Origin: Agelas oroides
Taxonomy: Eukaryota; Porifera; Demospongiae; Agelasida; Agelasidae
NCBI GenBank assembly: GCA_949130485.1
Contig: OX422183.1
Location: 1,237,001 to 1,301,000 of the forward strand
Direction: 5' to 3'
DNA: 64,000 bases
Part shown: one piece after another, positions 14,101 to 49,185 of the stretch
How positions within the stretch are numbered: the stretch's first letter is position 1
Layout: each line of letters starts with the position of its first letter
Translations under genes and position numbers: made by a program
Notes under the pieces: model-generated
Databases searched by the model: none
The model's input: only the letters and a program-made list of their open reading frames with translations
Told to the model about the DNA's origin: nothing

Positions 14101-14109
14101 CACAAGTAC

Positions 14110-14404: not shown

Positions 14405-16651
14405 ATGGCCACGCCCCCCACTGTTACTGAACAAGCTCTCAGGAAGCTGGAAGACCAGCTCACTTGTAGTATCTGTCTCGACTCCTACACTGAACCCAAA
14501 CTGCTGCAGTGCTTCCATGTGTTTTGCAAACAGTGTCTGGAGCGACTTGTAGTACGTGATCGCCAGGGGATATCGCTTCACTGCCCCAGCTGCCGTCGAT
14601 CTACCCTTCTTCCTCCGACAAGTGTTTCAGGCCTCCAAACAGCATTTTACCTCAACAATCTCTTTGAGGTTCGTGATGCCATAGAGAAAGTGAAAGAGCC
14701 ACAGAAAACCCAGTGTGAGAAGTGCGAAAAGCGTGTCGCAACCAGTTTCTGCCGCAACTGTGGCCAGTTCATTTGTGCATTGTGCACACAAATCCACCAA
14801 GAGTGGAAAGAATTCTCGTCACACGAGGTTATCACCCTTGACCAACTGGAGGGAGATGTGGCTCGACTTGTTCCTCCCAAGAAAAAGGTCATGTTCTGCT
14901 CCAAACACTCCACCAAAGAGCTAGATCTGTACTGTGAAACATGCGAAGAGTTGGTATGTCGTGATTGCACTGTTCGTATTCACCGAGACCATCAGTACGA
15001 TCTAGTTACCGACGCCTTCCTGAAGCACAAAGATGTGCTTGTTACAAGTCTGCAACCAGTTGAACAGCAGCTAGACACAGTAACAAAATCACTGCGACAG
15101 TTAGACACACAGTGCCAGCAAATCACAGACCAGCGGGAAGCCCTTGTAGGGAACATCCACAAAACCATCCGACAGCTACAGGAAGCACTGGAGGTAAGGA
15201 AAACAAAACTCATTGGCCAGCTAGACCATATCACTCAGCGGAAACTGAAAACCCTAGCTGCCCAGAGAGATCAAATTGAGCTAGTTCAAACCCAGCTGAG
15301 TAGCTGCCTTGATTTCGTGAAGGAGAGCCTACGAACTGGAAGTGAGGGAGAAATCCTGGCCATGAAGAAGCCAGTAGTGAAACAGGTTGAAGAAATCACA
15401 GCCGAGTTCAAGGCAGATGATTTAGCACCACAAGAACGAGCAGACATCAGGTTCTCAGCTAGCACTCCAGAGCTCACCCGAACATGCCAGCATTTCGGCA
15501 AGGTCTACTCCCATCCAGTCTCCCCCGAGAGGTGCTATGCAACAGGTAAGGGTCTGGAGGTAGCAACAGTTGGAGAGCAGGCTACCGCAATCCTGCATGC
15601 CATAGACACAGATGGCAAGGAATGTGAACAGCCACTTGTCAACACCAGTTGTGAACTAGTGTCAGACGCAGGTGGTCCGACCGTCAAAGCTCCAATACAG
15701 AAGAAGGAGAAGAACAAGTACACAATCAGCTACCAGCCCACCCACAGAGGAAGGCATCAGTTACACATCCAAGTCGAGGGAGTACCCATCAGAGGAAGTC
15801 CATTTGGTGTAGTTGCAGTGAAGAGTCTCAGCACCCTCATCAGAACTATTGGTGGTCTTAAATTCCCCTGGGGTGTGGCAGTCAACCAGAGAGGAGAGAT
15901 CATAGCGGCAGAGTATAATGGACACTGTATCTCCATCTTCAGTCCAATTGGAGAGAAAATCAGAACATTTGGGAGTAAGGGCTCTGCTCAGGGACAGTTC
16001 GATGTGCCACGTGGTGTTGCTGTTGATGGTGATGGTAGCATACTGGTTGCGGACGGAGGAAACCACCGCATTCAGAAGTTCACAGCAGGTGGAAAGTTTC
16101 TTACAACAGTAGGTCAGAGAGGGAGTAAGCATCTTGAGTTTTCATACCCAGCTGGTGTTGCTATCAATCACAGAAACAGAAAGGTGTACATTAGTGACAC
16201 AAATAATCACCAAATCCAGATACTGAATGCAGACTTGACATTCTCCAGTAGTTTTGGCAGTCGAGGTAGTGGTGATGGACAGTTCAACTTCCCCTGGGAT
16301 GTAGCATTAGACAGTACTGGGAATGTGTATGTGCCAGACAGTGAAGGCCATCGTATCAAAGTGTTCACAGCAGAGGGAATGTTTCTGAGAAAGTTTGGGA
16401 AGAAGGGCAGTGGTGATGGAGAACTGCACTCCCCCTCCAGTGTTAGCATAGACTCTGATGATATAGTGTACGTGACTGACTCCAACAACCATCGTGTTTC
16501 CATGTTCACCAGTGAAGGTCAATTCCTGAGATCATTTGGCACATGGGGAGCAGGACCAGGACAATTTAAAAACCCTTGTGGAATAGTAGTGGACAGAGAT
16601 GGACTTGTTTATGTTAGTGACACTCCCAACGATCGCATACAAATCTTTTAG
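14405..16651 (+). CDS. TRIM-NHL E3 ubiquitin ligase, paralogue 1
   Basis: An intact single-exon frame encodes 748 residues. Order of domains: C3HC4 RING finger (C21, C24, C36, H38, C41, C44, C60, C63); a B-box 1-like zinc site (C104, C107, C116, C119, C124, C127 and later His); B-box 2 (C165, H168, C177, C180, C185, C188, H193, H196); coiled coil about 205-345; filamin/ABP280 domain about 352-472; six NHL repeats about 473-748 forming a beta-propeller. This is the TRIM2/3/71 architecture. RING and B-boxes act in ubiquitin transfer, the coiled coil in dimerisation and the propeller in target or RNA binding in known relatives. Substrate is unknown. The NHL blades start with LKFPWG, DVPRG, SYPAG, NFPWD, HSPSS and KNPCG; these loops differ most among paralogues. 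Confidence 0.94.
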   Translation: MATPPTVTEQALRKLEDQLTCSICLDSYTEPKLLQCFHVFCKQCLERLVVRDRQGISLHCPSCRRSTLLPPTSVSGLQTAFYLNNLFEVRDAIEKVKEPQKTQCEKCEKRVATSFCRNCGQFICALCTQIHQEWKEFSSHEVITLDQLEGDVARLVPPKKKVMFCSKHSTKELDLYCETCEELVCRDCTVRIHRDHQYDLVTDAFLKHKDVLVTSLQPVEQQLDTVTKSLRQLDTQCQQITDQREALVGNIHKTIRQLQEALEVRKTKLIGQLDHITQRKLKTLAAQRDQIELVQTQLSSCLDFVKESLRTGSEGEILAMKKPVVKQVEEITAEFKADDLAPQERADIRFSASTPELTRTCQHFGKVYSHPVSPERCYATGKGLEVATVGEQATAILHAIDTDGKECEQPLVNTSCELVSDAGGPTVKAPIQKKEKNKYTISYQPTHRGRHQLHIQVEGVPIRGSPFGVVAVKSLSTLIRTIGGLKFPWGVAVNQRGEIIAAEYNGHCISIFSPIGEKIRTFGSKGSAQGQFDVPRGVAVDGDGSILVADGGNHRIQKFTAGGKFLTTVGQRGSKHLEFSYPAGVAINHRNRKVYISDTNNHQIQILNADLTFSSSFGSRGSGDGQFNFPWDVALDSTGNVYVPDSEGHRIKVFTAEGMFLRKFGKKGSGDGELHSPSSVSIDSDDIVYVTDSNNHRVSMFTSEGQFLRSFGTWGAGPGQFKNPCGIVVDRDGLVYVSDTPNDRIQIF

Positions 16652-16901
16652 GATGATGTCATCTGTTGATAGTATTGTGTCTTGTTGACATGTTGTGCAT
16701 GAATGTATTGCCTACAGCTTTGGCCTAAATATCTTCTTCCGAATGTATCACAGGGTATAAAATTCTCAGCTGAAGTAGCACTTGGCAACTAGAGTACTCA
16801 TTTTGTGGGTGTGTATTATTGTGAACGTAAACGGGGGAGGCCTGGGAACGAGACTAATTTCTCTTTATCCCACATTATGGTGTTTGTCTCTATTGTTGTA
16901 G
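16652..16901 (+). other. TRIM 1 3' flank and unit junction
   Basis: About 125 bp of TRIM 3' flank leads into fibrillarin intron sequence at about 16779 (cacttggcaact), which matches 1622 in unit 1. This is the duplication joint. No AATAAA is seen. A block present after TRIM 2 and TRIM 3 (about 140 bp or more with ttataatattttgc) is missing here. A half foldback (gaggcctgggaacgagacta) ends at about 16857. Confidence 0.75.
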
Positions 16902-17204
16902 AACGAGGGAGAAGAGGGTAAGACAGAGTATCGTGTGTGGAACCCTTTCAGAAGCAAGCTGGCGGCGGCCATTTTAGGGGGAGTGGACAAGATCCATATA
17001 AAACCTGGCTCCAAGGGGGGCAGCGTCTGGGACAACCGTCTCCCACGTGTCAGATATTGTCGGACCAGTAAGTGCACTCATGTGTGAAAATGTTGCTATG
17101 AAACTCCAGCCCCCGCTGCCTCCTCTCTCCTTGTGTAAGAATGTTGCACCCTCCCCCCACCTCGCCTTTTTATCTTCTTCACCGTTTCAGTTCATAACTC
17201 AATC

Positions 17205-17322
17205 AATGCATCACTGCTTCACCCCATCACCATTTCACCCTATCACCATCACCATTCATCCCATCACCACTTCACCCATCACATCACTACTTCACCCTAT
17301 TACCACTCACCCATCACAACTA
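17205..17322 (+). repeat. CATCACCACTTCACC minisatellite, unit 2
   Basis: A short degenerate array in the first fibrillarin intron. It is nearly identical to unit 4 (50212-50320) and unlike unit 3, which matters for the history of the copies. Confidence 0.8.
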
Positions 17323-17483
17323 GAGCTGTAACGATATAATGATTTTAAGCTATATTGCGATTCTGCTTTGCGTCATACGTGAATTAATATACAAGATTCG
17401 ATGTATTGATATGTGATCATCACTGCACTCGTAATAAACAGTGCAGCACTTGTGAGAGAGACGGCAGGTGTTCATTCCCAAGC

Positions 17484-17676
17484 GTTCCCATGCACCGTCC
17501 ATTTTTTGATCACTTGCAGTATGCAACTATTCGATCAGGGACCCCTCCCCCCCTCTGTCTACCTAGGTAGACACTGACGTCACTCACGTGATAAAATGGA
17601 CCAGGCCTTCCCCTCCATTATTGCATACTGCTAGCGATCAAAAACTGGACAGTGGGAAGGCCTGGGAACGAGGCTA
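17484..17676. mobile_element. foldback element ending CCTGGGAACGAGGCTA
   Basis: The right end belongs to the TAGCCTCGTTCCC family. Internal words tgatcacttgcagtatgcaa and ttgcatactgctagcgatca are inverted. The left end is unclear (a decayed cattcccaagcgttccc may be it). Units 3 and 4 carry the same element ending at 32356 and 50673; unit 1 lacks it. Confidence 0.65.
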
Positions 17677-17907
17677 CAGAATGTGAGGTGTAGCGCTATT
17701 TTGGTTATCCTGGGAGAGCAATAACTCACCTGTGCACCAACAAGGAGCTTCTGCCTGCAGAGTGTACTCTGGTCACCTGTCGTGGGTACAAAGTTGCATA
17801 GTGGAATTATCTGTGGGCCAGTGGGAAGGTGACAAGTGGCTCGTCCTCAAACAGTGAATAGGTGGCATTCGAAACCATGGTGCATAGCCAATATATTGTT
17901 ATATGCA

Positions 17908-18314
17908 CAGTGGAACAACCCGGACACTGTTGGGCCCAATGATTTGTCCTTTGTAGTGAGGTGTCCTTAACCTTAATCTTTGAAATTACGAAATGCAAAA
18001 TTAGTTTTTGTTAGTGGACCTTGAAGTTCTGGATTATAAGTTGGAGGTTGTGTTGGTGGAAGAAACATGACCTTAAAGTTGCTATATTTGTCCTTGATTT
18101 CTGGTGGATGGCATCCAGCATTATCCATGAGAAGTGCAATAGAACGACCTTGTGACCTTAGCTGTCGATTCAATTTGGAGAGGACTGTATCCAGAATTTC
18201 CCCCGTCATCCATCCTTTCGGCTGACTAAAATATTGCACAGGAACGTTAACTCTATTCCTTGAATTTTCCGATTTCCAAATGACGACAGTTGCTTCATTT
18301 CTCCATTTGCAATT
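17908..18314 (-). mobile_element. truncated Tigger transposon, unit 2
   Basis: The left end (CAGTGGAAC) and the C-terminal part of the transposase remain on the minus strand, including [19 protein letters not shown] and [11 protein letters not shown]. The rest is lost with the fibrillarin exons in one deletion ending at 18314. Confidence 0.88.
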
Positions 18315-18552
18315 TATATGTATTCTCTCCTCTTTTTCCCCTCTCCTTTCTCCATTACCTTCCTTCCCTCCTCTTCCTTTTCCCCCTCTTCTTTCCCTTC
18401 TCCCCTCCTCTTATACCTTCCCTCCCTCATTTTCCCATTCCCCTCCTCTTCTCCTCTCTTCTTTGTCTGTTCTCCCCCCTCTCACCTTCCCTCTCCTCTC
18501 CTCCCCTCCCTCCACTTTCCCTTTTCTCCACTGCTCCACCATACCACTCCAG
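18315..18552 (+). repeat. polypyrimidine tract before fibrillarin exon D, unit 2
   Basis: Nearly pure C/T for about 230 bp, equal to the tract in units 3 and 4 from tatatgtattctctcc onward. Confidence 0.85.
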
Positions 18553-18947
18553 GCTAATTGCATCGATTCGACAGCTGAACCAGCGAAGGTGTTTGTTGGG
18601 GAGATTAAGAAACTACAAGCAGACAAACTGAAGCCACAGGAGCAAATTACCCTGGAGCCCTACGAGAGAGACCACGCAGTTGTAGTGGGCGTGTACAGGT
18701 GAGTGCTTCATCAATGGACGTGGGAAATACACATACATGAAGGTTTTTGAGGCTAGGTACATTGTATATAGTGCTGGGCAGGCAGACACCGCATGTGAGT
18801 TTGCATGCCTTTTACAAATGTGGTAGTCCTGGATAGAAATTGAATATTGTTCTGTCGTGTATTTCAAGTGCATCACCAAGTTTGATGTGCTATAATGCTG
18901 GGCTTCTGATAAGGGTGGGGCTCATATGTGCTTCATAGATATTCTTG

Positions 18948-19162
18948 AGGCGTAGATATTCGTGAGTGAAAAATCTAAGCAATCTTCGAATGCACAAAAC
19001 TTCATCATACTTTTTGCAACGTTTCGACCCCGAGGGATCTTCTTCGGACAATACAAGACTGGAGACAGTCTACATGTATTTTGTAAAGCGTGTCTCTATG
19101 TTCTTGTATTTACAAGGTGTTGTTCCGAGGTCTTGACTACTAGAAACTCATAGATATTCTTG
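18948..19162 (-). mobile_element. 200-bp insertion with 15-bp target duplication
   Basis: TCATAGATATTCTTG is present at 18933-18947 and 19148-19162; unit 1 has a single copy (about 6014-6028), the empty site. The minus strand contains GAAGAAGATCCCTCGGGG followed by TCGAAACGTTG. GATCCC can pair with GGGGTC before GAAAC, like stem II and core of a hammerhead ribozyme found in Penelope-like retroelements, though the expected CUGANGA reads CCGAAGA. A long target duplication fits retrotransposition. Copies sit at 37374-37588 and 55310-55524. Confidence 0.65.
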
Positions 19163-19320
19163 TATTTACATAGCACGTATGAGCCCCGCCCTTAGCAAAA
19201 GCTCAGCGCTATAGTGCGTCAAAGTCGGTGAGCACTCAAATTACGCGACAGAATACTATTCAAGTTCTATCTGGGACTGCCACAGATGTCTTTTTAGTTC
19301 CAGACCTTCTTATGACATAC

Positions 19321-19395
19321 TAGCCTCATCCCCAGGCCACTCCCAGATTCCACGGCTGCGAGATAAAATCTGGGAGTGGCCTGGGGACGAGGCTA
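19321..19395. mobile_element. 75-bp hairpin MITE with 9-bp duplication
   Basis: The ends are TAGCCTCATCCCCAGGCC and GGCCTGGGGACGAGGCTA, with CTCCCAGATT pairing around a short loop. ATGACATAC is duplicated at 19312-19320 and 19396-19404. Shared with units 3 and 4. Confidence 0.93.
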
Positions 19396-19401
19396 ATGAC
19401 A

Positions 19402-20041
19402 TACTGTATAGATGGTTTCCAAATGTCAATTAAGCGTCCTACTTCCGGAGGGCAAACGCGCAACCAAGAGGCAGCTGTACAGCAGACCTTTCACCTTGAG
19501 GGAAGCAGCTTCTTTTATCTTTCGGTACTAATGGTAAGGACTCGATGTAGCGCTTACTAGCCTGTATTTTGCACGCAGCTGCACTAAACTCAGACACCGA
19601 CTTTTGCCCTCCGGAAGTGAAGCCACGCCCCATGAAAACCATCTATAGCGCAAAATTTTCGCGGGTCTTTAATTTCATGCATTTCGTGAATTTTCAACTG
19701 TTCACGAAATTATTTCAACGAAAGTTTTTTTACACGTAAACTACAGTTTTCACGTGCAAGAGTGTCGATGGACAACATACTACCGAATCCACAAGGGACA
19801 CACTCCAAAGAGATACCTTCGAAGTAGGCATTGCTTTGCTGACAGCTGCAAGCTCGAGCGCGGACAACATCGTGACAGTGAGTATTAGATAGAACTTGCT
19901 TGTATGCCACGCCCATACTAAATTACGTGTGCGGCGTGTGCATGGTTTAGACACTGAATTCGCGAAATTATTTCAGCGAAATCTTCAAAAACCACCATTC
20001 GCGAAAATTTAGACCCTCGAAAATTTAGTGCTATACGGTAG
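19402..20041. mobile_element. TACYGTATAGC inverted-repeat element, unit 2
   Basis: The left end tactgtatagc-gcaaaattttcgcgggtct and the right end agaccctcgaaaatttagtgctatacggta are imperfect inverted repeats of about 30 bp. Inside, gcgaaatt and aatttcg words recur. In unit 2 the left repeat is broken by the 19411-19643 insertion; intact versions lie at 37828-38229 and 55764-56165. Confidence 0.75.
19411..19643. mobile_element. 233-bp MITE with TATA duplication, unit 2 only
   Basis: Inverted ends GATGGTTTCC / GAAAACCATC flanked by TATA on both sides (19407-19410, 19644-19647). Units 3 and 4 keep the empty site ctgTATAgcgc. Internal ACTTCCGGAGGGCAAA is also inverted near the right end. Confidence 0.88.
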
Positions 20042-20433
20042 GTCCATGGAGACCAGAGGGTCTATTGCAGGATGGTATAATACATCATCTTTGTCCCTCG
20101 CCTCTCTCCCATCTCATTTTGTTCTTCTCTGTCCCTCAGACCTGTGAAGAAGGAGAAATCATCTTAGCAAAACCCACTCACACTAGTTGCTTCATGTATA
20201 AAGTTTTTTCTTTCTGTTAAATGTGTTCTTTAAATAACTTTCTTGCACATGAATTTCTGCACGTCTGTATGCTCTACATGTAGCAATAAATAAAGAATTT
20301 TTTCTCAATAGCTAAAGAGTAAGTTATTTTAAAGAGCACCTCTCCCTGCCTGTTTCATGTGAACAAGACGTCCTTCGTTTTTGCATGATCATACTATAAG
20401 CAATCCAAACTGGGGAGGGCCTGCAGGGAAGGC

Positions 20434-20545: not shown

Positions 20546-20582
20546 GAACAAGGCCGTTTTCACATTGTGTATCTCATGTCCA

Positions 20583-31459: not shown

Positions 31460-31764
31460 AACGAGGGAGAAGAGGGTAAGACAGAGTATCGTGTGTGGAA
31501 CCCTTTCAGAAGCAAGCTGGCGGCGGCCATTTTATGGGGAGTGGACAAGATCCATATAAAACCTGGCTCCAAGGGGGGCAGCGTCTGGGACAACCGTCTC
31601 CCACGTGTCAGATATTGTCGGACCAGTAAGTGCACTCATGTGTGAAAATGTTGCTATGAAACTCCAGCCCCCGCTGCCTCCTCTCTCCTTGTGTAAGAAT
31701 GTTGCACCCTCCCCCCACCTCGCCTTTTTATCTTCTTCACCGTTTCAGTTCATAACTCAATCAA

Positions 31765-31990
31765 TGCATCACTACTTCACCATTTCACCTCATCACTGGT
31801 TCACCTCATCACCATTTCTCCTCATCACCATTCACTCCATCACCATTCATCCCATCACCATTCATCCCATCACCACTTCACTCCATCACCATTCATCCCA
31901 TCACCACTTCACTCCATTCACCACTTCACCCATTCACCACTTCACCCATCACCACTTCACTGCACCCCATCACCACTTCACCCATCACAA
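31765..31990 (+). repeat. CATCACCATTCATCC minisatellite, unit 3
   Basis: Degenerate 15-16-bp array in the first fibrillarin intron, with a different order from those in units 2 and 4. Confidence 0.8.
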
Positions 31991-32599
31991 CTAGAGCGGT
32001 AACGATATAATGATTTTAAGCTATATTGCGATTCTGCTTTGAGTCATACGTGAATCAACACAAGATTCGATGTAGTGATATGTGTACATCACATGATCAT
32101 CACTGCACTTGTGATAAACAGTGCAGCACTTGTGAGAGAGACGGCAGGTGTTTATTCCCAAGCGTTCCCATGCACCGTCCATTTTTTGATCACTTGCAGT
32201 ATGCAACTATTCGATCAGGGACCCCTCCCCCCCTCTGTCTACCTAGGTAGACACTGACGTCACTCACGTGATAAAATGGACCAGGCCTTCCCCTCCATTA
32301 TTGCATACTGCTAGCGATCAAAAACTGGACAGTGGGAAGGCCTGGGAACGAGGCTACAGAATGTGAGGTGTAGCGCTATTTTGGTTATCCTGGGAGAGCA
32401 ATAACTCACCTGTGCACCAACAAGGAGCTTCTGCCTGCAGAGTGTACTCTGGTCACCTGTCGTGGGTACGAAGTTGCATAGTGGAATTATCTGTGGGCCA
32501 GTGGGAAAGTGACAAGCAGTAAACAGGTGGCGTTGGAAACCATGGTCAACAGCCAGTATATTGCTATACAGTGGAACTCCTCTAAAACCGTGGTGTATA

Positions 32600-33055
32600 G
32601 CCAATATCAGAGAGTCGGTAGACTCTCTATGTAGGGATGGCGCCGATGCGCAATATATGCAATACTTAAGCAAAAGCCGTATAACTTCACCACAAACACG
32701 CTAAAAGCTTATTTAAGGGCCCAGGCTTCCTCTTTGAGTGCCTTTGTGATCAGCAAGACTCATATAAGTTGCCCAAGCCATGCGAAAGACAGCTAAACGC
32801 AAAAGTGGGCAGTAGCGAAAGTGCCTTCTTGTTACGACCACTATGTTCAACAACGATATCTCGCAAACGGTTGAAGTACTCACTGTCATTTTAGCACGAA
32901 ACTGATCCTTATCACAACACGGAGCTCCACGACCAATCGGCGTCTTCATAGCTTCAAATTCACCCTGGTCAATATAGCCATTCACAACACTCCATGGCTG
33001 CTGTCCGTTGCTTAGGACGCCATTTTCTAATTTTGTACACATGCGCACATGTAGT
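32600..33055. other. about 450 bp of sequence unique to unit 3
   Basis: This stretch has no counterpart in the other units and is bordered by repeated Tigger-side sequence (tgtgggccagtgggaaagtgacaag at 32492 and 33070). A minus-strand frame of 111 codons (32713-33048) is open but unrecognised. It may be an insertion of unknown origin; terminal repeats are not clear. Confidence 0.4.
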
Positions 33056-33178
33056 ATGTTGCATAGTCTGTGGGCCAGTGGGAAAGTGACAAGCAGCTCG
33101 TCCTCAAACAGTGAACAGGTGGCGTTCGAAACCGTGGTGCGTAGCTAAAACCGTGGTGCATAGCCAATATATTGTTAT

Positions 33179-33765
33179 ACAGTGGAACCCCTCTAAAACC
33201 GTGGTCCTATATTGCTATACAGTGGAACCCCTCTAAAACCGTGGTCCTATATTGCTATACAGTGGAACCCCTCTAAAACCGTGGTCCTATATTGCTATAC
33301 AGTGGAACCCCTCTAAAACCGTGGTCCTATATTGCTATACAGTGGAACCCCTCTAAAACCGTGGTCCTATATTGCTATACAGTGGAACCCCTCTAAAACC
33401 GTGGTCCTATATTGCTATACAGTGGAACCCCTCTAAAACCGTGGTCCTATATTGCTATACAGTGGAACCCCTCTAAAACCGTGGTCCTATATTGCTATAC
33501 AGTGGAACCCCTCTAAAACCGTGGTCCTATATTGCTATACAGTGGAACCCCTCTAAAACCGTGGTCCTATATTGCTATACAGTGGAACCCCTCTAAAACC
33601 GTGGTCCTATATTGCTATACAGTGGAACCCCTCTAAAACCGTGGTCCTATATTGCTATACAGTGGAACCCCTCTAAAACCGTGGTCCTATATTGCTATAC
33701 AGTGGAACCCCTCTAAAACCGTGGTCCTATATTGCTATACAGTGGAACCCCTCTAAAACCGTGGT
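33179..33765. repeat. 40-bp satellite made of Tigger ends, 15 copies
   Basis: The unit is ACAGTGGAACCCCTCTAAAA followed by ccgtggtcctatattgctat, repeated every 40 bp (starts at 33181, 33221 and so on to 33741) with almost no variation. The first half is the terminal inverted repeat of the adjacent Tigger transposon. Other units have one end at this place. Confidence 0.95.
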
Positions 33766-33788
33766 GCATAGCCAATATATTGTATGCA

Positions 33789-35270
33789 CAGTGGAAAAGT
33801 CGGACACTGTTGGGACCAATGATTTGTCCTTTGTAGTGAGGTGTCCTTAGCCTCAATCTTTGAAATTACGAAATACAAAAATAATTTCGATAGTGAACCT
33901 TGAAGTTTTCGATAATGCTTAAATCCAGTGGTTGTAACTTGGAGGTTGTGTTGGTGGAAGAAACATGATCTTAAAGTTGCTATATTTGTCCTTGATTTCT
34001 GGTGGATGGCATCCAGCATTATCCATGAGAAGTGCAATAGAACGACCTTTTGACCTTAGCTGTAGATTCAATTTGGAGAGGACTGTATCCAGAATTTCCC
34101 CGTCATCCATCCATTCGGCTGACTAAAATATTGCGCAGGAACGTTGCTAACTCTATTCCCTTGAATTTTTCAGATTTCCAAATGACGACAGCTGCTTCAT
34201 TTCTCCATCCGCAAATGCAATTAAGATAACTGTCACTGTTTTGCCTTTTTTCCACCTTTGAACTGTGATCCTCTCTTGCTGAAGCCATGATCAGGTAGAG
34301 CCCTCCAAGAACAAGCAGTTTCATCGAGGTTCCAGATTTTCTCACTCGAATATCCCTGTAGAAGCTCAGGTACCCTCTCCTTCCACGAATTGACAGTCTC
34401 CTGATTCTCCGCTGATTTTCATTCTTGTATCTCTTCTTCATTCTTTTCACATTGTATCTCTTCTTCCACCTGCCATCTATTTGATGCTTTGAAATTGGGA
34501 ATTCCTAGGTACTTAGCAATTTTTGGGGCTTTTTCACAAAGTTGTGGACCCACAAATAGATGTTTCGTGAGACAGCACATAAGTACCGTCTATTAAGAGC
34601 ATCATTGACATCAGCAAATTCAGAAGTGCGTGATCTTTCCTGGAGTGTGTGGTTTCACTCTGTAAGTTTGATTCATAAAGCTCCAAAATCGACTCTTTTG
34701 TTTTTTAAGGATAGAGGCAATCTGTGATTTACCACAAGAGCAAGCTTGCGTACACTCATTAGAGGATTCTTTCTAGCCATATCTAGAACTTCATATTTCT
34801 TCTGAAGTGTCAGAGCGTTCCTGCTTGTCGCCATTTTCACCAAGTAAGATCAAGCTTGACAACTTCGTGGTGCAGGCTACGGGCTGGAGATCCCATGTAT
34901 GTATCATTTCTACGGGTCGAAGTCCTTTATTGACAAACTGAAGAAACTTGTAGAGGCTGTTCACAGTGATGGACGTTTGTAGCTTGCTCGTAGAGGTTCT
35001 TGTGTGAATGTACATCCATACACATGCAGCCAGCCACGTATCTCCGTACAAGCCATTTATTCAGTGGGTGTGGCTAAACTGTCCATTGCGCGAGGTTATT
35101 GTGAGTGAGCAATTGGGGAAGGATTAGTGTCTGTTATACGGAGTTGCGGGGTGTCCGCTATTCAGGGGTTTCTAATGTATTGAAGTGAATGGAAGGACAG
35201 TTGGAACTTTCAGAATTGTCCGTTTTATCGTGGGTGTCCACTGTTGAGGGGTGTCCGTTAAGAGGGGTAT
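33789..35270 (-). mobile_element. Tigger/pogo-type transposon, decayed, unit 3
   Basis: The minus strand carries broken transposase pieces: an N-terminal part near 34600-34840, a middle part 34103-34450 and the DNAGCHPP block at about 33919-34110. The right terminal repeat lacks its last bases (gtgtccgttaagaggggtatattg). A duplicated cattctt...cacattgtatctct segment lies near 34420-34460. Not functional. Confidence 0.85.
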
Positions 35271-35354
35271 ATTGAAATTACTGTATAATCTGACTGATAT
35301 ATTGATTGGTACTGAAGCGTATTGTTCTCTAATCACTACCTCCGCCTAAAATTA

Positions 35355-35570
35355 TCAGTTCACCTCTTCACCACGTCACCCCATCACCACTTCACTCATC
35401 ACCATTCATCCCATCCCATTCACCCCACACCATTCATCCGTCACTGCTTCACCCCATCACCACTTCACCCATCACCATTCATCCCATCCCATTCATCCCA
35501 TCCCATGTCACCCCATCACCACTTCATCCCATCACCACTTCACCCCATCACTACTTCACCATTTTATCTC
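35355..35570 (+). repeat. C/A-rich minisatellite before exon B, unit 3
   Basis: Degenerate caccccatcaccacttcac units supply the acceptor tract. Confidence 0.75.
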
Positions 35571-35730
35571 CCCCTCTACACACTCACCCACTCACAGGAA
35601 GGTCTGGTATATGCCGTAGAGTTCTCTCACCGCTCAGGGCGAGACCTGATCAATGTAGCCAAGAAGAGAACCAACATCATCCCCATCATCGAGGACGCCA
35701 GACACCCGCACAAGTACAGGATGCTGGTCG

Positions 35731-35870
35731 GTGAGTCAACACATCACACCATCACTCCTTCACACCATCACTACATCACACCATCACTCCATTACTTTGT
35801 CCATTTCATCACCAGCTCACACCATCACTACATCACCAGCTCACACTATCACCAGCACACGTACACGTAC
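35731..35870 (+). repeat. CACACCATCACT repeat after exon B, unit 3
   Basis: About 12-18-bp units (catcactccttcacac) begin just after the donor; unit 4 has a similar array at 53410-53570. Unit 1 lacks it. Confidence 0.75.
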
Positions 35871-36294
35871 ACATAGTACATTTAGCTTGGTGGCTGTCTT
35901 GGATAGAAATATTATTCCGTCGTGTATTTCGAGTGCATCATTGAGTTTGAAGTACTGTAGCGCTGAGCTTCCGCTAAGAGTAGGGCTCGTATGTGAAATA
36001 TCTGGTGCATTTATGAAGCACATATGAGCCTCACCCTTAACAGAAACTTGATGCTACAGTGCATCAAAGTTGGTGCTGTGCTCTAAATACATGAAGGAAA
36101 ATGTTTCAATTTTAACTGGGACTGCCACATCTCATTTTGAACCACACTCGTGTCATTTTACCTCCCATGTTTGCAGCGATGGTGGATGTGATATTTGCAG
36201 ACGTGGCTCAGCCTGACCAAGCCAGGATCGTGTCCATCAATGCACAACACTTCCTCAAGAACCAGGGCAACTTTGTCATATCAATCAAGGTCAG

Positions 36295-36329
36295 TCTGTC
36301 TGTCTGTCAGTCTGTCTGTCTATCTGACC

Positions 36330-36409
<80 letters not shown>

Positions 36410-36411
36410 GA
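36295..36411 (+). repeat. (CTGT)n microsatellite, about 115 bp
   Basis: It begins right after the donor of fibrillarin exon C. The equivalent run is about 23 bp in unit 1 and about 45 bp in unit 4, so the array is length-variable between copies. Confidence 0.92.
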
Positions 36412-36644
36412 CCTTTCTGTGCATGCACAACCCCACATGTTATACATGTACATATAAGGAGTATTCCCATTATCTCTTCACCTCCCTCTCTCTCTTTGCC
36501 TACATTGTTCCTGAGTTCCTGAGAGATGTCCAGGATTGCCATCTTAGTAGTTCCTTTGATCTTTCTTTGTTCTCTAATCACAACCCTAACCCTAACCCCA
36601 CCCCCTAACAATGCATGCAAACCTGGACATGTATAGAGTTCCTC

Positions 36645-36987
36645 TTTCAACTTTACCCTCCTTCTCTTACCCCTCTCTGCACGTTCTCCCCTTTCTACCT
36701 TCCCCCCTCCTCTCCCCTTTTTCCCCTCCTCTTTCCCTCCTCCGCCCTTTTATATGTATTCTCTCCTCTTTTTCCCCTCTCCTTTCTCCATTACCTTCCT
36801 TCCCTCCTCTTCCTTTTCCCCCTCTTCTTTCCCTTCTCCCCTCCTCTTATACCTTCCCTCCCTCATTTTCCCATTCCCCTCCTCTTCTCCTCTCTTCTTT
36901 GTCTGTTCTCCCCCCTCTCACCTTCCTCTCCTCTCCTGCCCTCCCTCCACTTTCCCTTTTCTCCACTGCTCCACCATACCACTCCAG
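36645..36987 (+). repeat. polypyrimidine tract before exon D, unit 3
   Basis: C/T-rich for over 300 bp up to the acceptor ccactccag. Confidence 0.85.
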
Positions 36988-37373
36988 GCTAATTGCATCG
37001 ATTCGACAGCTGAACCAGCGAAGGTGTTTGTTGGGGAGATTAAGAAACTACAAGCAGACAAACTGAAGCCACAGGAGCAAATTACCCTTGAGCCCTACGA
37101 GAGAGACCACGCAGTTGTGGTGGGCGTGTACAGGTGAGTGCTTCATCAATGTAGATGGGAAATACACGTACATGAAGGTTTTTGAGGCTAGGTACATTGT
37201 ATATAGTGCTGGGCAGGCATGTGAGTTTGCATGCCTTTTACAAATGTGGCAGTCCTGGATAGAAATTGAATATTGTTCTGTCGTGTATTTCAAGTGCATC
37301 ACCAAGTTTGATGTGCTATAATGTTGGGCTTCTGCTAAGGGTGGGGCTCATATGCGCTTCATAGATATTCTTG

Positions 37374-37821: not shown

Positions 37822-37827
37822 ATGACA

Positions 37828-38718: not shown

Positions 38719-38758
38719 GAACAAGGCCGTTTTCACATTGTGTATCTCATGTCCATAA

Positions 38759-39246
38759 TCAGCACAGTCTGTGGTCTGGGAACAAGGCCACTTTCACATA
38801 ATACACCTCATGCCCATACTCCACCCTCTCATGCAGCACAGTCTGTGGTCTGGGAACAAGGCCAGCGTTCACATAATACACCTCATGCCCATACTCCACC
38901 CTCTCATGCAGCACAGTCTGTGGTCTGGGAACAAGGCCAGCGTTCACATAATACACCTCATGCCCATACTCCACCCTCTCATGCAGCACAGTCTGTGGTC
39001 TGGGAGCAAGGCCACTTTCACATAATACACCTCATGCCCATACTCCACCCTCTCATGCAGCACAGTCTGTGGTCTGGGAACAAGGCCAGCATTCACATAA
39101 TACACCTCATGCCCATACTCCACCCTCTCATGCAGCACAGTCTGTGATCTGGGAGCGCAGGGAGCAAGGCCACTTTCACATAGTACACCTCATACCCATA
39201 CTCCACCCTCTCATGCAGCACAGTCTGTGGTCTGGGAGCAAGGCCA
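38759..39246 (+). repeat. 74-bp tandem repeat, about six copies
   Basis: Clean head-to-tail units containing GTCTGTGGTCTGGGAACAAG. Copy number is higher than in units 1 and 2. Confidence 0.92.
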
Positions 39247-40078
39247 GCCTTTCGGTAGCCTCAATTCACATGCCAAATGTGTGCAGCTGTATGTAATAAT
39301 GGCAAGCTTGCTCCCTCCTATACAGGGGAAGGGTGTGTGGTTAATTTGACTAGGTGGGTGGGGCTGACATTTGAAGTGCACTCTGTGGTTTTGTCTTTGC
39401 ATCCAATAACACTCGGGTTGTGCAGCCGCAGAGAACAAGCTCCATCCATGCATGCAGGAATGGGGTGTGTGGATAAATACCATTTTACCTAGCCTCCTCC
39501 CCATGCGTGCAGAAAACACAGGGAGGAGCCTGGGTACAAGGCTGGTTAAATACAAAACACAAGTATAGGGTGGAGCTGACGTAGTCTTGTAAGCCACACC
39601 CTCTGCAGAGAGAGAGATGAGTCTGTGCAGCTTGTGAGACTAGAGTTGACTGTTTTGAATTTTCTGTAGCCTCGTAGCCAGGCAATTACAAACAGCAACT
39701 TACACCTTCATTTGTAGCAAAACATAGTTCTAAAAAAATACATGGTGATATTTACGTGGAAGAGAATTCCAGTCCTTAGCTCCCAAAAACTCAAATATGC
39801 ATATGTATTAGGCCAATGAAATTACTCCAATCAGATTTATGCGCCTATCAATGGTATGCCCGGCGTTGCCCGCCTGGGACGGATGTTGGAGAAAGGAAGG
39901 GGATTTGCCATCAGAATCTTCCTCAAGGGTTGGTACTTAGTTGGGATTTCCCAATCCACTCAAATGGCATACATAGTCTCCTTCATTGTGTTAAATGTCA
40001 TTGGAAAATTCTTTGTGAATTCCACAAATACCCATATCTCCCTGTCACACACTATGCACAACATGGGGTATTTGTAGG

Positions 40079-43515: not shown

Positions 43516-43655
43516 GTATACTAGAAAATGTTGAATATTGTGGGGGTGAGCGTGAGCAAGCAGCTACTATGGCTGCACATGAATAGACTAAGCTTCACGC
43601 TGAATCATGAGCTGAATTGTTAGCGTTTACGAGTGCCGTTTATGCATGGCCTTAC

Positions 43656-43833
43656 CTGAAACAGTCTCAAACCGGCGTGTCATGATAATTTGTATGGTCT
43701 GCGAGCAGCTTGCCGTTAATGGTCGCTCCATAGCTGCCGTGACAAACAAGAAGTAAGTTGCGGTATGCGCTTCAACTTGAGGCGTCTCCGCTACGGTTGC
43801 CGACGCTGCACTCTGGCAGTAGTAGCCCAACAT
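43656..43833 (-). CDS. candidate minus-strand first exon, unit 3
   Basis: Same frame and GTAAGG donor as at 25561. Two amino-acid differences from unit 2 (ATV for ATI, CSQ for CLQ). Confidence 0.3.
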
Positions 43834-44499
43834 TGCCCTTACCTACTGACTCAGCATTGAAGTGCACGAGGCCAACGTTCAATTTTCGGGAAAAATTTAT
43901 GCGCATTTAGAATTTACGGTATATGGCCACAAATAAACAAACAAACAAACCAACATACACACGCATCTTGCAATGCAGTCCGACTAGTGTGGGGCTCGCT
44001 CATCCCAACAAACAATAACCTCCATTAGGTGGACGCTTGTCGACATCTTCTGCCAGATTGTTCATCAACACTTTTGGATAGCTACTTTTTATCTTCTCTC
44101 AAAAGAACAAGCTGGAAGCCTTTCTTTCTGGCATCTGTCCAAGTTCCAAACGTTCACAAAGCAAACTTACTGCTCGTTGTTCAGGACAAAGAATGCATAT
44201 GTGAAATGTGATTGGTGACCCCTTCCCTCTCAGATTACCTAGGTACGTAGATGTCATTCACATGATTCAATGGACCAGACCTTCCTCCTTTGTTTTTTGT
44301 GCACTGTAAACAAACAAAAACCGGACGGTGTGAAGGCCTGGGAATGAGACTACCTTCTCTCCTTTTATTATCTAACTGACATTTCTTGTGCCATAGTTTT
44401 TCTGTTTTATTTCACCCCTCGTCCATTCCTCAGCAACGAATAGTGACCTTTGACCTATGAGCCTAGTTGTAATAATGTGTAACCGGGCTGTGTCTGCAA

Positions 44500-45069
44500 T
44501 AGCCTCGTTCCCAGGCTCTTGTGCGTGGGAGGAGGAAAGAGAGCCTTGTACACACTGTTCGCGCATGCGCCAAATTCCCTTGGTAACCTGCATACTACTC
44601 CGCTACACTAAAATTACAGTCAATTTCTGTTTACCTTCTGAAAGGCTGCACTGCCTGGTTATACTCCCTGTGGGATACATACGGGCGGTTTTGAAGTCAA
44701 AAACAATATCACTTTGACGGTAACGGTCTGCACTGCTTCGTTCGAGGCGATCGGTAAACTTCAAAGGGAAAGATTGCATCAGTCACGTGCCACAGCGTTT
44801 AGCTGGAATGGACAAACGCGTGGACAATTCCTGCAAGCGAAGAGCTGAGTACCTTCGTTGCTCCCTCGTCATCGTGTACACAGAGCGTGGTCAGTGGCAG
44901 GCATCTTTCATACGGGAGAAGTCGGAGTGCCTTGCGGAGGTTAGTTTAACGGAGCAGATTTTACGGAAATTTCCAAATTCCCAGAAATCCTGGTGGAACT
45001 GAGCATGCGCAAACAGTGTGTACCAGACTCTTTTCTCCCCACCCACGCACGAGCCTGGGAACGAGGCTA
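44500..45069. mobile_element. 570-bp TAGCCTCGTTCCC element, unit 3
   Basis: Same insertion as at 11977, with the 9-bp TGTCTGCAA flanks. The internal frame has one change (R to C). Confidence 0.92.
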
Positions 45070-46118
45070 TGTCTGCAATTGTGTATCTATGGCTACGATG
45101 TTCAAGTCAAACGATAATGCAGCCTAATGAAAGAATCAAGTTCGTTTCACATCTTTCAGGTATGCAGATGATACTTTAAGTGCTGTTTTCATTGTTTCTC
45201 TCATTAAACTGGCCAAGAAATGGGCAGTTAAGACACACACACACACAACCAGACAATCCTTCTTGCACATGTGTGCACAGGGTAATTACTGTACTGGACA
45301 CCTTTTCTTTTTGAACCTTTATTGTGTGTGTATCTATGCTCCTTGCTTGCGGCCATGTACTTCAAATTTCAAATGAGTGTATTCAATTATTTACAAAGAT
45401 CAATCTCATGAACCTGAGCATGTGAAGGCCCTGGTGAAGGCCAATGGAGGGCTACTTGATGCATCATCTCACTGTTATCTACCTGGCCTGTGATGTGTGT
45501 TGCTGATTTGTGTAACTCATCTGCTCCAGTGTAGCTGTTGACTGAAGCACATGACTATGTTATGTTTCAGACCTACTGACCTACTACGTGAACAAATGTA
45601 CTTATTTACTAGGGGGAATGTAGAACATTGTGGGGCGAGCGTGAGCAAGCAATGCACTACAGCATTGACTGTTGTGTAGCAGCACACCTAGCCCTGTGAA
45701 TACCCAGGCCTCGTAGCAGTTGATCTCGTGCCCAGACCTGGGGCAGGGCACCGCTTAAATAGATCATAGAGATATACGGAATCACGTACGTACTGTACAT
45801 ACATATATATATATATACATATCGACAATCCTCCAGCAAACTCGCCAGTGTGGGGCTCGCTCACGCTCACCCCAATTACGCTCTGTGGTCTCATCCCAAA
45901 CCATTCTCTAAATGAGACTACCTATATGCTATGAGTCTCATTCCAGATCCTTCATTTAGTCTGGGAATGAGTATGTACAAGTACACAGGAGGAATAGCAG
46001 TGAACCGAGTCAAGAGCAGACTGTTCAAGACAGCTGACTTTGCATGCACATCACGTTTTAATTTTTGAGTCTCATTCCTGATCCTTCTTCTAGTCTGGGA
46101 ATGAGTATGCACAAGTAC

Positions 46119-46631
46119 TAGCCTCGTCCCCAGGCCACTCCCAGATTTTATCTCGCAGTCTAGTCTCGTGCCCAGCCCCTCCCCGCACGTGCGAGAAAGA
46201 GGGTCTGGTATTCTGAACGACTGTTCTTGTCACATGGCCGGGGCAGGGTATTTCCCCGACCTGAGAGCTCGAATCAGATTCTAGAACGCATAAATTATAT
46301 GTGCATGACGTAAGCGATCGTATTTTGAACCAAATTGGAGGTAGATAAAACTTACCTCGCAGCTCGTTTTCAGCTTTCCCAAGAAACTTCGCCACCTTAT
46401 CAAGCCTTTGTAAACCATACCGTGCAGCAGTCTAAGTTGTCAGAAAACTCGGAGTCCCGGATGTAAAATGTAGATATGACATTCTTTACGCTGTAGGCCC
46501 CGCCCCATGTGACAAGAAATGTCACTCAGAACACCAGACCCTCTTTCCGCTTTTCGGGGGAGGGGTCTGGGGACGAGACTACTCGCAGCCGTGGAGAGAT
46601 AAAAGCTGGGAGTGGCCTGGGGAGGAGGCTA
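46119..46631. mobile_element. hairpin MITE with nested MITE, unit 3
   Basis: Same nested pair as in unit 1; the inner element is 46161-46581. Confidence 0.92.
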
Positions 46632-46935
46632 CACAAGTACAACTTACAAACTATATTCACCTATGCACTGATAGGCTGTTGCTAAGCGCTGGTTATTTTA
46701 TAGCTGGCTAGCCTCATTACCATATATGGTAAGGTATGCTACCCACACCAATGAATGACAGATGAGGCTTTATCAGATTTGTGATTGAAGTTGCTTCACA
46801 GCCATTTGTCAACTTACTAGCTGTCAGCTTTTGAAATTTTGTCTCAAGAAGAGTGAGTTTGAGTTTGTGGCTCGCTGGCATCTGGTGTGTACCTACAGTT
46901 CAGCTTTATAGTTTCCTATCCTCGTTTCAGCCACA

Positions 46936-49185
46936 ATGGCCACGCCCCCCACTGTTACTGAACAAGCTCTCAGGAAGCTGGAAGACCAGCTCACTTGTAG
47001 TATCTGTCTCGACTCCTACACTGAACCCAAACTGCTGCAGTGCTTCCATGTGTTTTGCAAACAGTGTCTGGAGCGACTTGTAGTACGTGATCGCCAGGGG
47101 ATATCGCTTCACTGCCCCAGCTGCCGTCGATCTACCCTTCTTCCTCCGACAAGTGTTTCAGGCCTCCAAACAGCATTTTACCTCAACAATCTCTTTGAGG
47201 TTCGTGATGCCATAGAGAAAGTCAAAGAGCCACAGAAAACCCAGTGTGAGAAGTGCGAAAAGCGTGTCGCAACCAGTTTCTGCCGCAACTGTGGCCAGTT
47301 CATTTGTGCATTGTGCACACAAATCCACCAAGAGTGGAAAGAATTCTCGTCACACGAGGTTATCACCCTTGACCAACTGGAGGGAGATGTGGCTCGACTT
47401 GTTCCTCCCAAGAAGAAGGTAATGTTCTGCTCCAAACATCCCACCAAAGAGTTAGATCTCTACTGTGAAACATGCGAAGAGCTGGTATGTCGTGATTGCA
47501 CTGTTCGTGTTCACCGAGACCACCAGTATGATCTGGTTACTGATGCCTTCCAGAAGCACAAAGAGGTCCTTGTTACAAGTCTGCAACCAGTTGAAAGGCA
47601 GCTAGACACAGTAACAAAATCACTGCGACAGTTAGACACACAGTGCCAACAAATCACAGACCAGCGGGAAGCTCTTGTAGGGAACATCCACAAAACCATC
47701 CGACAGCTACAGGAAGCACTGGAGGTAAGGAAAACAAAACTCATTGGCCAGCTTGACCATATCACTCAGCGGAAACTGAAAACCCTAGCTGGCCAGAAAG
47801 ATCAAATTGAGCTAGTTCAAACCCAGCTGAGTAGCTGCCTTGATTTCGTGAAGGAGAGCCTTCGAACTGGAAGTGAGGGAGAAATCCTGGCCATGAAGAA
47901 GGCAGTAGTGAAACAGGTTGAAGAAATCACAGCCGAGTTCAAGGCAGATGATTTAGCACCACAAGAACGAGCAGACATCAGGTTCTCAGCTAGCACTCCA
48001 GAGCTCACCCAAACATGCCAACAGTTTGGCAAGGTCTATTCTTGTCCAGCTTCTCCCGAGAGGTGCTATGCAACAGGTAAGGGTCTGGAGGTAGCAACAG
48101 TTGGAGAGCAGGCTACCGCAATCCTGTATGCTTTGGATGCAGATGGCAAGGAATGTGAACAGCCACTTGTCAACACCAGTTGTGAACTAGTGTCAGACGC
48201 AGGTGGTCCCACTGTCAAAGCTGCAATACAGAAGAAGGAGAAGAACAAATACGCAATCATCTACCAGCCTACCCACAGAGGAAGGCACCAGTTGCACATC
48301 AAAGTGGAGGGAGTGTCCATCAGAGGAAGTCCCTTTGGTGTAGTTGCAAGGCTTCCCACTCAAAAACTTGGTACCCCTGTCAAGACCATTGGTGGTTTCA
48401 ATCAACCCTGGGATGTGGCAGTCAACCAGAGAGGAGAGATCATAGTAGCAGAGTATAACGGACACTGTATCTCCATCTTCAGTCCAATTGGAGAGAAAAT
48501 CAGAACATTTGGGAGTAAGGGCTCTGCTCAGGGACAGTTTAGTGGGCCACGTGGTGTTGCTGTTGATGGTGATGGTAACATACTGGTTGCGGACGCACAG
48601 AACCATCGCATTCAGAAGTTCACAGCAGGTGGAAAGTTTCTTACAACAGTAGGTCAGAGAGGGAGTAAGCATCTTGAGTTTTCACACCCAATGGGTGTTG
48701 CTGTCAATCACAGAAACAGAAAGGTGTACATTTGTGACAGAGGGAATCACCGCATCCAGATACTGAATGCAGACTTGACATTCTCCAGTAGTTTTGGCAG
48801 TCATGGTGGTGGTAATGGACAGTTCAACTGTCCCTGGGATGTAGCATTAGACAGTACTGGGAATGTGTATGTGGCAGACAGTGAAGGCCATTGTATCCAA
48901 GTGTTCACAGACGAGGGAAAGTTCCTGAGAAAGTTTGGGAAGAAGGGCAGTGGTGATGGAGAACTGAACTTCCCCTCCAGTGTTAGCATAGACTCTGATG
49001 ATATAGTGTATGTGACTGAGTACTACAACCATCGTGTTTCCATGTTCACCAGTGAATGTCAGTTCCTAAGATCATTCGGCACAAAGGGAGAAAGACCAGG
49101 ACAATTCAGCTACCCTCGTGGAATAGTAGTGGACAGAGATGGACTTGTTTTTGTTAGTGACAGCCATCGCATACAAATCTTTTAG
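46936..49185 (+). CDS. TRIM-NHL E3 ubiquitin ligase, paralogue 3
   Basis: Intact, 749 residues. RING and B-box ligands are all kept. It differs from paralogues 1 and 2 in the filamin domain (TCQQFGKVYSCPASPERC, LYALDADG) and in the filamin-to-NHL linker, which is three residues longer (RLPTQKLGTPVKTIGG). Blade loops are again distinct: FNQPWD, SGPRG, SHPMG, NCPWD, NFPSS, SYPRG, with ADAQNHR, CDRGNHR, TEYYNHR and a shortened final SDSHRIQIF. The 5' UTR intron is at 46853-46930. Like its sisters it lies between ARCN1-like exons and the next fibrillarin copy. Confidence 0.94.
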   Translation: MATPPTVTEQALRKLEDQLTCSICLDSYTEPKLLQCFHVFCKQCLERLVVRDRQGISLHCPSCRRSTLLPPTSVSGLQTAFYLNNLFEVRDAIEKVKEPQKTQCEKCEKRVATSFCRNCGQFICALCTQIHQEWKEFSSHEVITLDQLEGDVARLVPPKKKVMFCSKHPTKELDLYCETCEELVCRDCTVRVHRDHQYDLVTDAFQKHKEVLVTSLQPVERQLDTVTKSLRQLDTQCQQITDQREALVGNIHKTIRQLQEALEVRKTKLIGQLDHITQRKLKTLAGQKDQIELVQTQLSSCLDFVKESLRTGSEGEILAMKKAVVKQVEEITAEFKADDLAPQERADIRFSASTPELTQTCQQFGKVYSCPASPERCYATGKGLEVATVGEQATAILYALDADGKECEQPLVNTSCELVSDAGGPTVKAAIQKKEKNKYAIIYQPTHRGRHQLHIKVEGVSIRGSPFGVVARLPTQKLGTPVKTIGGFNQPWDVAVNQRGEIIVAEYNGHCISIFSPIGEKIRTFGSKGSAQGQFSGPRGVAVDGDGNILVADAQNHRIQKFTAGGKFLTTVGQRGSKHLEFSHPMGVAVNHRNRKVYICDRGNHRIQILNADLTFSSSFGSHGGGNGQFNCPWDVALDSTGNVYVADSEGHCIQVFTDEGKFLRKFGKKGSGDGELNFPSSVSIDSDDIVYVTEYYNHRVSMFTSECQFLRSFGTKGERPGQFSYPRGIVVDRDGLVFVSDSHRIQIF

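Follow-up and report, generated by a model that had tools for sequence, protein, structure and literature searches.

TRIM-NHL proteins have been described as conserved regulators of RNA in development, and a locus of the sponge Agelas oroides raises the question of whether this fold can also carry a variable recognition surface. The stretch of DNA that was analysed (hereafter the window; 64,000 nucleotides, C1:1237001-1301000 of a genome of 259.3 Mb in 141 contigs) holds three TRIM-NHL genes on the + strand, each a single unbroken reading frame of 748-749 codons. A sequence-only reading of the window had proposed that these paralogues diversify only on the loops of the NHL propeller, which would make them a fixed ubiquitin-ligase frame with a variable recognition face, possibly in innate or self recognition. 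Here we ask where these genes and their relatives elsewhere in the genome vary, whether selection accounts for the variation, and what the varying surface might bind.

Domain Organization and Genomic Distribution

The features of the window on which the analysis rests are as follows.

14405..16651, + strand: TRIM-NHL paralogue 1 (L001), 748 aa, single open frame
14465..14593, + strand: RING finger of paralogue 1 (aa 21-63), Pfam zf-C3HC4, 29.1 bits against a cut-off of 21
14885..15001, + strand: B-box of paralogue 1 (aa 161-199), the higher-scoring of two stretches, Pfam zf-B_box
15518..15805, + strand: filamin domain of paralogue 1 (aa 372-467), Pfam Filamin, 61.7 bits
15857..16648, + strand: NHL propeller of paralogue 1 (aa 485-748), six blades, registers around P488, P535, P582, P630, P677 and P724
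28836..31082, + strand: TRIM-NHL paralogue 2 (L005), 748 aa
30288..31079, + strand: NHL propeller of paralogue 2, from Pfam and alignment
46936..49185, + strand: TRIM-NHL paralogue 3 (L011), 749 aa
48397..49182, + strand: NHL propeller of paralogue 3, from Pfam and alignment

All three proteins have Pfam matches above the cut-off to zf-C3HC4 and zf-RING_UBOX, zf-B_box matches in two stretches (57-59 bits), a filamin repeat and six NHL stretches, and an AlphaFold2 model has the propeller fold. Between the B-box and the C-terminal domain, a coiled-coil stretch is indicated indirectly by sequence matches to chains of TRIM3 and TIF1-beta. Among the Pfam matches at E<=0.001, B30.2/SPRY, the mark of a finTRIM, was absent, the C-terminal domain being NHL; NACHT and WD40, the marks of the NLR-like HNWD proteins, were absent at the same threshold.

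A whole-genome protein search gave at least 61 matches at E<=1e-20, a lower bound based on 60 scored among 369 first-look candidates. The window genes belong to a head-to-tail array of 11 genes that spans C1:1.251-1.433 Mb, successive gene starts being 14.4-21.1 kb apart; the other eight (L002, L006, L007, L008, L009, L003, L010 and L004) lie beyond the window. All 11 have open frames, with an altered C-terminus in L003. Unmerged haplotypes were ruled out as the source of this array, as its members stand in tandem on one contig and their NHL domains diverge by about 7-13%. Related groups at C1 2.9-3.65 Mb (hereafter C1b) and C13 0.69-0.80 Mb (hereafter C13) are 75-88% identical, and further groups were found at C13 1.5-1.7 Mb (51-54% identical) and on C10, C7 and C1 (about 34%).

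The analysis covered 50 of the 61 matches (L001-L050) and left out the other 11. Excluded from the group statistics were L007 and L008 (duplicates of L006), L027 (truncated, 609 aa), L028 and L030 (stops), the 63% identical outlier L029, and L045 and L050, and the groups then comprise nine distinct members for the array, nine genes for C1b and six for C13. Clade D (L031-L044, 14 genes), with an N-terminal part just about 30% identical, and clade E (L046-L049, four genes) were used in addition. The duplicates just mentioned form a triplet, L006/L007/L008 (C1:1319937-1357160), whose members are about 17.5 kb apart, differ by 0-1 nt in the CDS and have near-identical flanks (0-13 differences per 1.5 kb); either a very recent triplication or an effect of the assembly may explain this.

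Interleaved Fibrillarin Copies and Other Features

Fibrillarin is usually single-copy. In this genome, 47 of the 48 matches to fibrillarin (PF01269) fall in C1:1236651-1437728, the remaining one being weak (C11, 27.4 bits). Each TRIM-NHL gene of the array is followed by one copy and a further copy precedes the first gene, all on the same strand as the 11 genes. The copies in the window are the following.

1723..5304, + strand: fibrillarin copy upstream of paralogue 1, PF01269 matches at 1723-1902, 4420-4557, 4724-4849 and 5146-5304 (model positions 42-226)
16917..18699, + strand: fibrillarin copy of unit 1, exon A frame-disrupted, last matched exon (D) open, middle exons unmatched
31475..37134, + strand: fibrillarin copy of unit 2, frame-disrupting change of exon A shared with unit 1
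49903..55039, + strand: fibrillarin copy of unit 3, PF01269 matches spanning model positions 42-226

Matches in the window begin at 1723, 4420, 5146, 16917, 18541, 31475, 35595, 36976, 49903, 53267 and 54881, among others. A frame-disrupting change is common to five of the 12 exon-A copies, and the copy of unit 1 looks like a pseudogene.

The intergenic spacers contain short-unit tandem repeats (826-1500, 38719-39253, 56659-57799 and 58598-59221), which include a minus-strand open frame of a repeated peptide. At 2967-3707, also on the minus strand, lies an open frame of 246 codons, which by eye we take to resemble a piece of a pogo/Tc-type transposase. Elsewhere in the assembly, the mitochondrial contig C141 carries a cox1 (13976-16550) with TGA as tryptophan, interrupted by an intron whose open frame presumably resembles a homing endonuclease, and also has a match to the ATP synthase c subunit, atp9. 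Mitochondrial atp9 together with such a cox1 is a demosponge trait, and the contig looks demosponge-like.

Variation Concentrated at Two Places in Each Blade

In the array (nine distinct members, 36 pairs), pS and pN are 0.079 and 0.019 in the RING-B-box-coiled coil region and 0.085 and 0.080 in the NHL domain; silent divergence is thus about equal and replacement divergence is four-fold up in the NHL domain. The filamin domain of the same nine members has a pS of 0.140 and a pN of 0.037. Similar values of pS/pN were obtained in C1b (0.23/0.059 in the RING-to-coiled-coil region vs. 0.20/0.13 in the NHL domain, nine genes) and in C13 (0.22/0.057 vs. 0.20/0.13, six genes). Because silent change is about equal in the two parts and replacement change is not, the N-terminal part as a whole cannot simply have been homogenised, and homogenisation as the sole cause of the pattern was rejected on this ground; yet array codons 1-94 are nearly uniform, with a pS of just 0.02-0.03 as against 0.07-0.15 in later N-terminal windows. 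The counts made by eye between paralogues 1 and 2 are borne out by alignment, with 18 N-terminal replacements and 86% identity over the last 288 residues.

To place the NHL variation, blade registers were counted from the conserved proline (P488, P535, P582, P630, P677 and P724 in paralogue 1 numbering). Diversity peaks at -10, -2, -1 and +1 around this proline and at +16 and +17, before the N-H-R motif, and these are the six most variable registers in the array, C1b and C13 taken separately, whose register profiles agree with Spearman coefficients of 0.59-0.78. The earlier claim that the same two places vary in each blade is thus upheld. In clade D, the order of the 40 registers begins -1, +16, +17, +19, -2, +1, with -10 tenth; five of the six registers are therefore within the top six, and +19 (0.61) stands above -2 and +1.

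We refer to these positions as the fingerprint, which comprises 35 codons; the register pN/pS and residue-composition analyses used 36, including position 478, which lies ahead of the propeller and was later removed. In the array, amino-acid diversity averages 0.53 over the 35 fingerprint positions vs. 0.07 over the remaining NHL positions, and the highest value among 20,000 random position sets was 0.275; in none of four groups did 20,000 draws of random NHL positions match the fingerprint. When registers were chosen in two groups and tested in the third, fingerprint pN was 0.34-0.44 vs. 0.035-0.082 elsewhere in the NHL domain. The word "only" in the sequence-only reading was too strong: diversification is concentrated on these loops, but the B-box, coiled coil and filamin domain vary too, with a replacement deficit, and there is moderate variation at the non-fingerprint NHL registers +19, -8 and +14.

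The Variable Face of the Propeller

The NHL part of paralogue 1 was modelled with AlphaFold2 from the three window sequences (mean pLDDT 90, with one D-A loop block at 68). Its nearest structures are Thin, TRIM71 and LIN41, with a TM (query) of 0.86-0.90 to TRIM71 and Thin in structure alignment. By a manual reading of the model's strand list, each of the six blades has +16/+17 between its strands B and C, and strand A begins at the proline in all blades but blade 4, which has no assigned strand of three residues there. The D-A and B-C loops share one face of a beta-propeller. In the predicted structure, the fingerprint registers are these loops, on that one face and not in the buried core, in keeping with the proposal of a recognition surface.

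Kumari et al. named 14 residues of zebrafish LIN41 as RNA contacts (PMC5908797, available in part), and by alignment all 14 fall on -2, -1, +1, +16 and +17, with none on -10. The hypergeometric p of 3.6e-14 for this overlap overstates the case, because both position sets are periodic. In paralogue 1, the member that was scored, just one of the 14 contact residues is identical, unlike what is expected of the TRIM71 subfamily, and so the RNA specificity of LIN41 is not conserved. The net charge of the fingerprint is positive in 34 of 38 genes, zero in one and negative in three; that of the rest of the NHL domain is negative in 36 of 38. At the 36 registers, 48 of 858 residues are tryptophan, vs. 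3 of 5,478 elsewhere in the NHL domain (24 genes). It should be noted that NHL domains can bind proteins too.

Selection on the Fingerprint Codons

By the Nei-Gojobori method, fingerprint pN/pS is 1.33, 1.22 and 1.37 in the array, C1b and C13, with bootstrap intervals (0.89-2.12, 0.90-1.71 and 0.94-2.20) that all include 1; clade D has a ratio of 1.18 and clade E, with its four genes, one of 0.85. Outside the fingerprint, the ratio in the three groups is 0.39-0.49 in the rest of the NHL domain and 0.24-0.26 in the N-terminus.

With our own script and on a single tree, we next fitted a codon model that gives each site its own silent (alpha) and replacement (beta) rate. Mean beta/alpha at the fingerprint is 6.26/1.69, 3.41/1.26 and 3.11/1.97 in the array, C1b and C13, compared with 0.38-0.48/1.03-1.18 in the N-terminus. 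Against a model restricted to beta<=alpha, 2 delta lnL is 67.0, 40.7 and 19.8, and 134.5 for all 24 genes; with NHL-only trees, the three groups gave 71.1, 35.4 and 20.7. Sites with a posterior >0.9 in the whole-gene runs number 9, 13 and 1 of 35 in the fingerprint, 4, 1 and 2 of 468 in the N-terminus and 1, 1 and 0 of 229 in the rest of the NHL domain, and for all 24 genes 21 of 35, 13 of 468 and 11 of 229, respectively. C13 alone is weak in these runs, with just one of 35 fingerprint sites flagged vs. two of 468 N-terminal ones. In NHL-only runs, 27, 17 and 6 of the 35 fingerprint sites exceed this posterior, as do 12, 4 and 2 of the other 229; with all 24 genes the numbers are 16 and 3.

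Recombination among paralogues violates the single-tree assumption of this model, and a tree-free count of single-nucleotide steps between distinct codons at each site was therefore added. Replacement and silent steps at the fingerprint number 66:3 in the array, 86:18 in C1b, 59:12 in C13 and 144:28 in clade D, an excess over neutral expectation with p 1.3e-5 in the array and 0.0019 in clade D, and marginal in C1b (0.053) and C13 (0.063). In the same order of groups, the counts are 68:101, 199:213, 101:142 and 301:352 in the N-terminus and 53:30, 130:92, 74:68 and 241:184 in the rest of the NHL domain, where replacements are in deficit (p 0.055, marginal, in the array, 1.7e-5 in C1b, 5e-7 in C13 and 7e-12 in clade D).

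The earlier observation, in which replacement changes far outnumbered silent ones in the stretch compared at DNA level, is confirmed, and the pattern proved stronger than it had first been put. The outcomes named beforehand as refuting the proposal did not arise: the variable sites lie outside the core, dN at them is not below dS and the codon model favours beta>alpha, although the simple ratio is just 1.2-1.4 in the three groups, with bootstrap intervals that include 1.

Controls for Exposure, Mutation and Recombination

The loops of the opposite face are far less variable: pN is 0.021-0.101 in the A-B loop (+6 to +10) and 0.057-0.101 in the C-D loop (+25 to +29), compared with 0.445-0.491 at +16/+17 of the B-C loop. 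Furthermore, exon D of the 12 fibrillarin copies interleaved with the TRIM genes has a pS of 0.082, like that of the TRIM genes, and a pN of 0.011. Neither exposure alone nor local mutation rate accounts for the pattern, and a purely mutational cause was rejected on exon D and the 66:3 steps of the array. In fibrillarin exon A, pS is 0.030 and pN 0.015 over the first 33 codons; this pS is below that of exon D, and silent divergence is hence uneven along the units.

Third codon positions are more divergent at the fingerprint than elsewhere (0.26 vs. 0.05-0.07 in the array), and silent divergence at same-residue codons is 0.14, 0.32 and 0.41 beside the fingerprint vs. 0.03, 0.10 and 0.09 at four to five codons off (array, C1b and C13). 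Four-fold sites in the array (36 of 678 beside the fingerprint, 0 of 127 within it and 594 of 7,210 N-terminal ones) give no rise over the N-terminus. The raised third-position and, by one measure, neighbouring silent divergence means that some of the local signal does not come from selection on individual codons. Adenine-specific (DGR-like) mutagenesis was considered, since some sites vary at codon positions 1-2 with a fixed third base, and was set aside, as a third A is also fixed at places and third positions vary at the fingerprint generally.

Divergence along the array genes rises from 1% in codons 1-94 to about 3-7% in later N-terminal codons and about 7-13% in the NHL domain. The flanks differ by 0.4-2.1% within the 1.5 kb before and the 1 kb after the genes, whereas the 500 bases that follow downstream differ by 18% (with 28 of 36 pairs aligned); elsewhere, the similarity of the window units varies between about 77% and 99%. 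In the array, about 60% of informative site pairs conflict with one tree, and neighbouring sites are more compatible than shuffled ones over the whole gene in the array, C1b and C13 (p 0.0033, the minimum attainable) and over the NHL domain alone in the array and C1b (p 0.0033), with p 0.32 in C13. These results indicate recombination among paralogues. Of the silent N-terminal variants in the array, 62 of 77 minor alleles recur in the other two clusters, where 44 would be expected for a random silent alternative, and they look drawn from an older shared pool; for silent NHL variants (20 of 25 vs. 18 expected) there is no clear excess.

Comparison With Known Systems

TRIM71/LIN-41 (TRIM-NHL, class VII / subfamily C) has the same filamin domain and six-bladed NHL propeller; our NHL model is 37-43% identical to it in structure alignments, with a TM (query) of 0.86-0.89, and its 14 named RNA-contact positions lie among the variable positions of the array. 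TRIM71/LIN-41 is a conserved developmental gene, whereas many clustered copies with diversifying sites are found here. Likewise, Brat of Drosophila is a single conserved gene, unlike these clustered copies. Its NHL domain binds RNA, for which F916 and N933, 17 residues apart, are needed (PMC13245067, in excerpt), and this is the spacing of registers -1 and +16, a match of spacing and not of alignment.

As described in part of PMC2657112, finTRIMs, which were discovered as virus-induced transcripts, and TRIM5alpha share with the present genes a near-identical RING/B-box part, gene clusters and a recognition domain that is positively selected at congruent positions, but that domain is a C-terminal B30.2 there and an NHL propeller here. 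In the fungal HNWD proteins HET-D/HET-E, diversifying selection acts on four codons of each WD repeat, two in the D-A loop and two in the B-C turn, and the members of each pair stand on either side of a conserved residue; concerted evolution is described as well (PMC1805685, in part). Registers -1 and +1 flank the conserved proline similarly, and the same two propeller loops are diversified. Unlike these NACHT/WD40 receptors with near-identical, exchangeable repeats, the NHL blades here are mutually unlike, and any exchange appears to be gene-to-gene. On our best reading, the recognition repertoire would work like finTRIM or fungal HNWD receptors but belong to neither.

Among the top literature matches listed, from a collection lacking most subscription papers, no report of diversifying selection on NHL propellers was found, and the NHL and TRIM passages of PMC8242945 and PMC5094078 make no mention of TRIM-NHL diversification. 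In merulinid corals, orthogroups with NHL repeats and B-boxes are described as expanded in the portion of PMC11639872 that was available.

A Candidate Recognition Repertoire and Its Ligand

Overall, there is good evidence for diversifying selection on the NHL ligand face. A fixed ligase frame with a variable recognition face, as first proposed, agrees with the excess of replacements at the predicted sites, their position on one face and the 14/14 LIN41 contacts; taken as a whole, that interpretation is partly supported, and its suggestion of a role in innate or self recognition is plausible. These genes likely form a recognition repertoire, and we infer RNA as its ligand and an immune or genome-defence role.

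We consider it fairly probable that these are tandem, germline-encoded TRIM-NHL recognisers that combine a constant effector part with a variable ligand-binding face, the ligand most likely being RNA and the driver most likely conflict with parasites or transposons. The RING/B-box/coiled-coil/filamin part would be the effector, held constant as its strong computed replacement deficit suggests, and the about 35 positions on one face of the six-bladed propeller, which by computation diversify in several separate gene clusters, would form the face on which each protein, by homology, binds its ligand. The bound ligand would then be ubiquitinated or silenced via the RING and the rest of the TRIM, an activity predicted from homology. 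RNA of viral, transposon or other selfish origin appears the likeliest ligand because the variable face matches the RNA contacts of LIN41 and, in most genes, carries a net positive charge on a domain that is otherwise net negative. Conflict with parasites or transposons would most likely drive the process, which may serve immunity. A bolder extension, possible but on the doubtful side, is an RNA-level counterpart of KRAB zinc-finger arrays or variable receptors: roughly 30 contact positions per propeller would constitute a combinatorial germline code under continual diversifying selection, its copies recognising different viral or transposon RNAs and marking them or their carriers for silencing or ubiquitination.

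The same repertoire might instead bind protein, either a pathogen protein or a partner in self/allorecognition, as do the B30.2 domain of TRIM5alpha/finTRIM or HNWD. The frequent W, Y, N and S at the fingerprint would suit protein interfaces too, and the D-A and B-C loops that vary in HNWD WD40 propellers are read as a protein contact surface (PMC1805685, in part), but the positive charge of the face in 34 of 38 genes, on a domain otherwise negative in 36 of 38, and its overlap with the LIN41 RNA contacts make a protein ligand rather unlikely. Neofunctionalisation without conflict, in which paralogues would regulate different endogenous mRNAs in the developmental manner of LIN41 and Brat, finds a precedent in the regulation of mRNAs by both (PMC5908797 and PMC13245067, each in part). 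It is improbable in view of the repeated diversification of the same sites in four gene groups, and the near-identical triplet L006-L008 and the signs of recombination point to an open-ended process and not to a few stable roles.

Relaxed constraint, by which exposed loops of a redundant family would drift neutrally, has in its favour that the fingerprint sites are loops and that the simple pN/pS is near 1. It was rejected as very improbable, as the opposite-face loops are far less variable, the array has 66 replacement vs. 3 silent single steps, a codon model without beta>alpha fits worse in three groups, and the N-terminus retains a strong replacement deficit. Least credible of all is a mutational or conversion artefact (local hypermutation, short-tract gene conversion raising all change, or a merely homogenised N-terminus), which could draw on the locally raised third-position and, by one measure, neighbouring silent divergence, the indicated recombination and codons 1-94 nearly as uniform as the flanks, but which is at odds with a pS about equal in the whole RING-to-coiled-coil region and the NHL domain, with a pN of 0.011 at equal pS in fibrillarin exon D of the same units, and with the three silent steps against 66 in the array.

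Diversifying selection on a recognition face, probably one for RNA, thus remains the preferred reading. The TRIM-NHL fold occurs here in clustered copies whose RNA-contact positions have been picked out by selection for change, in parallel across several gene clusters. If this is confirmed, how animals without adaptive immunity build variable recognition would become testable in an early-branching animal, and the genes would offer a natural library from which the code that gives NHL propellers their specificity for RNA (or protein) could be learned.
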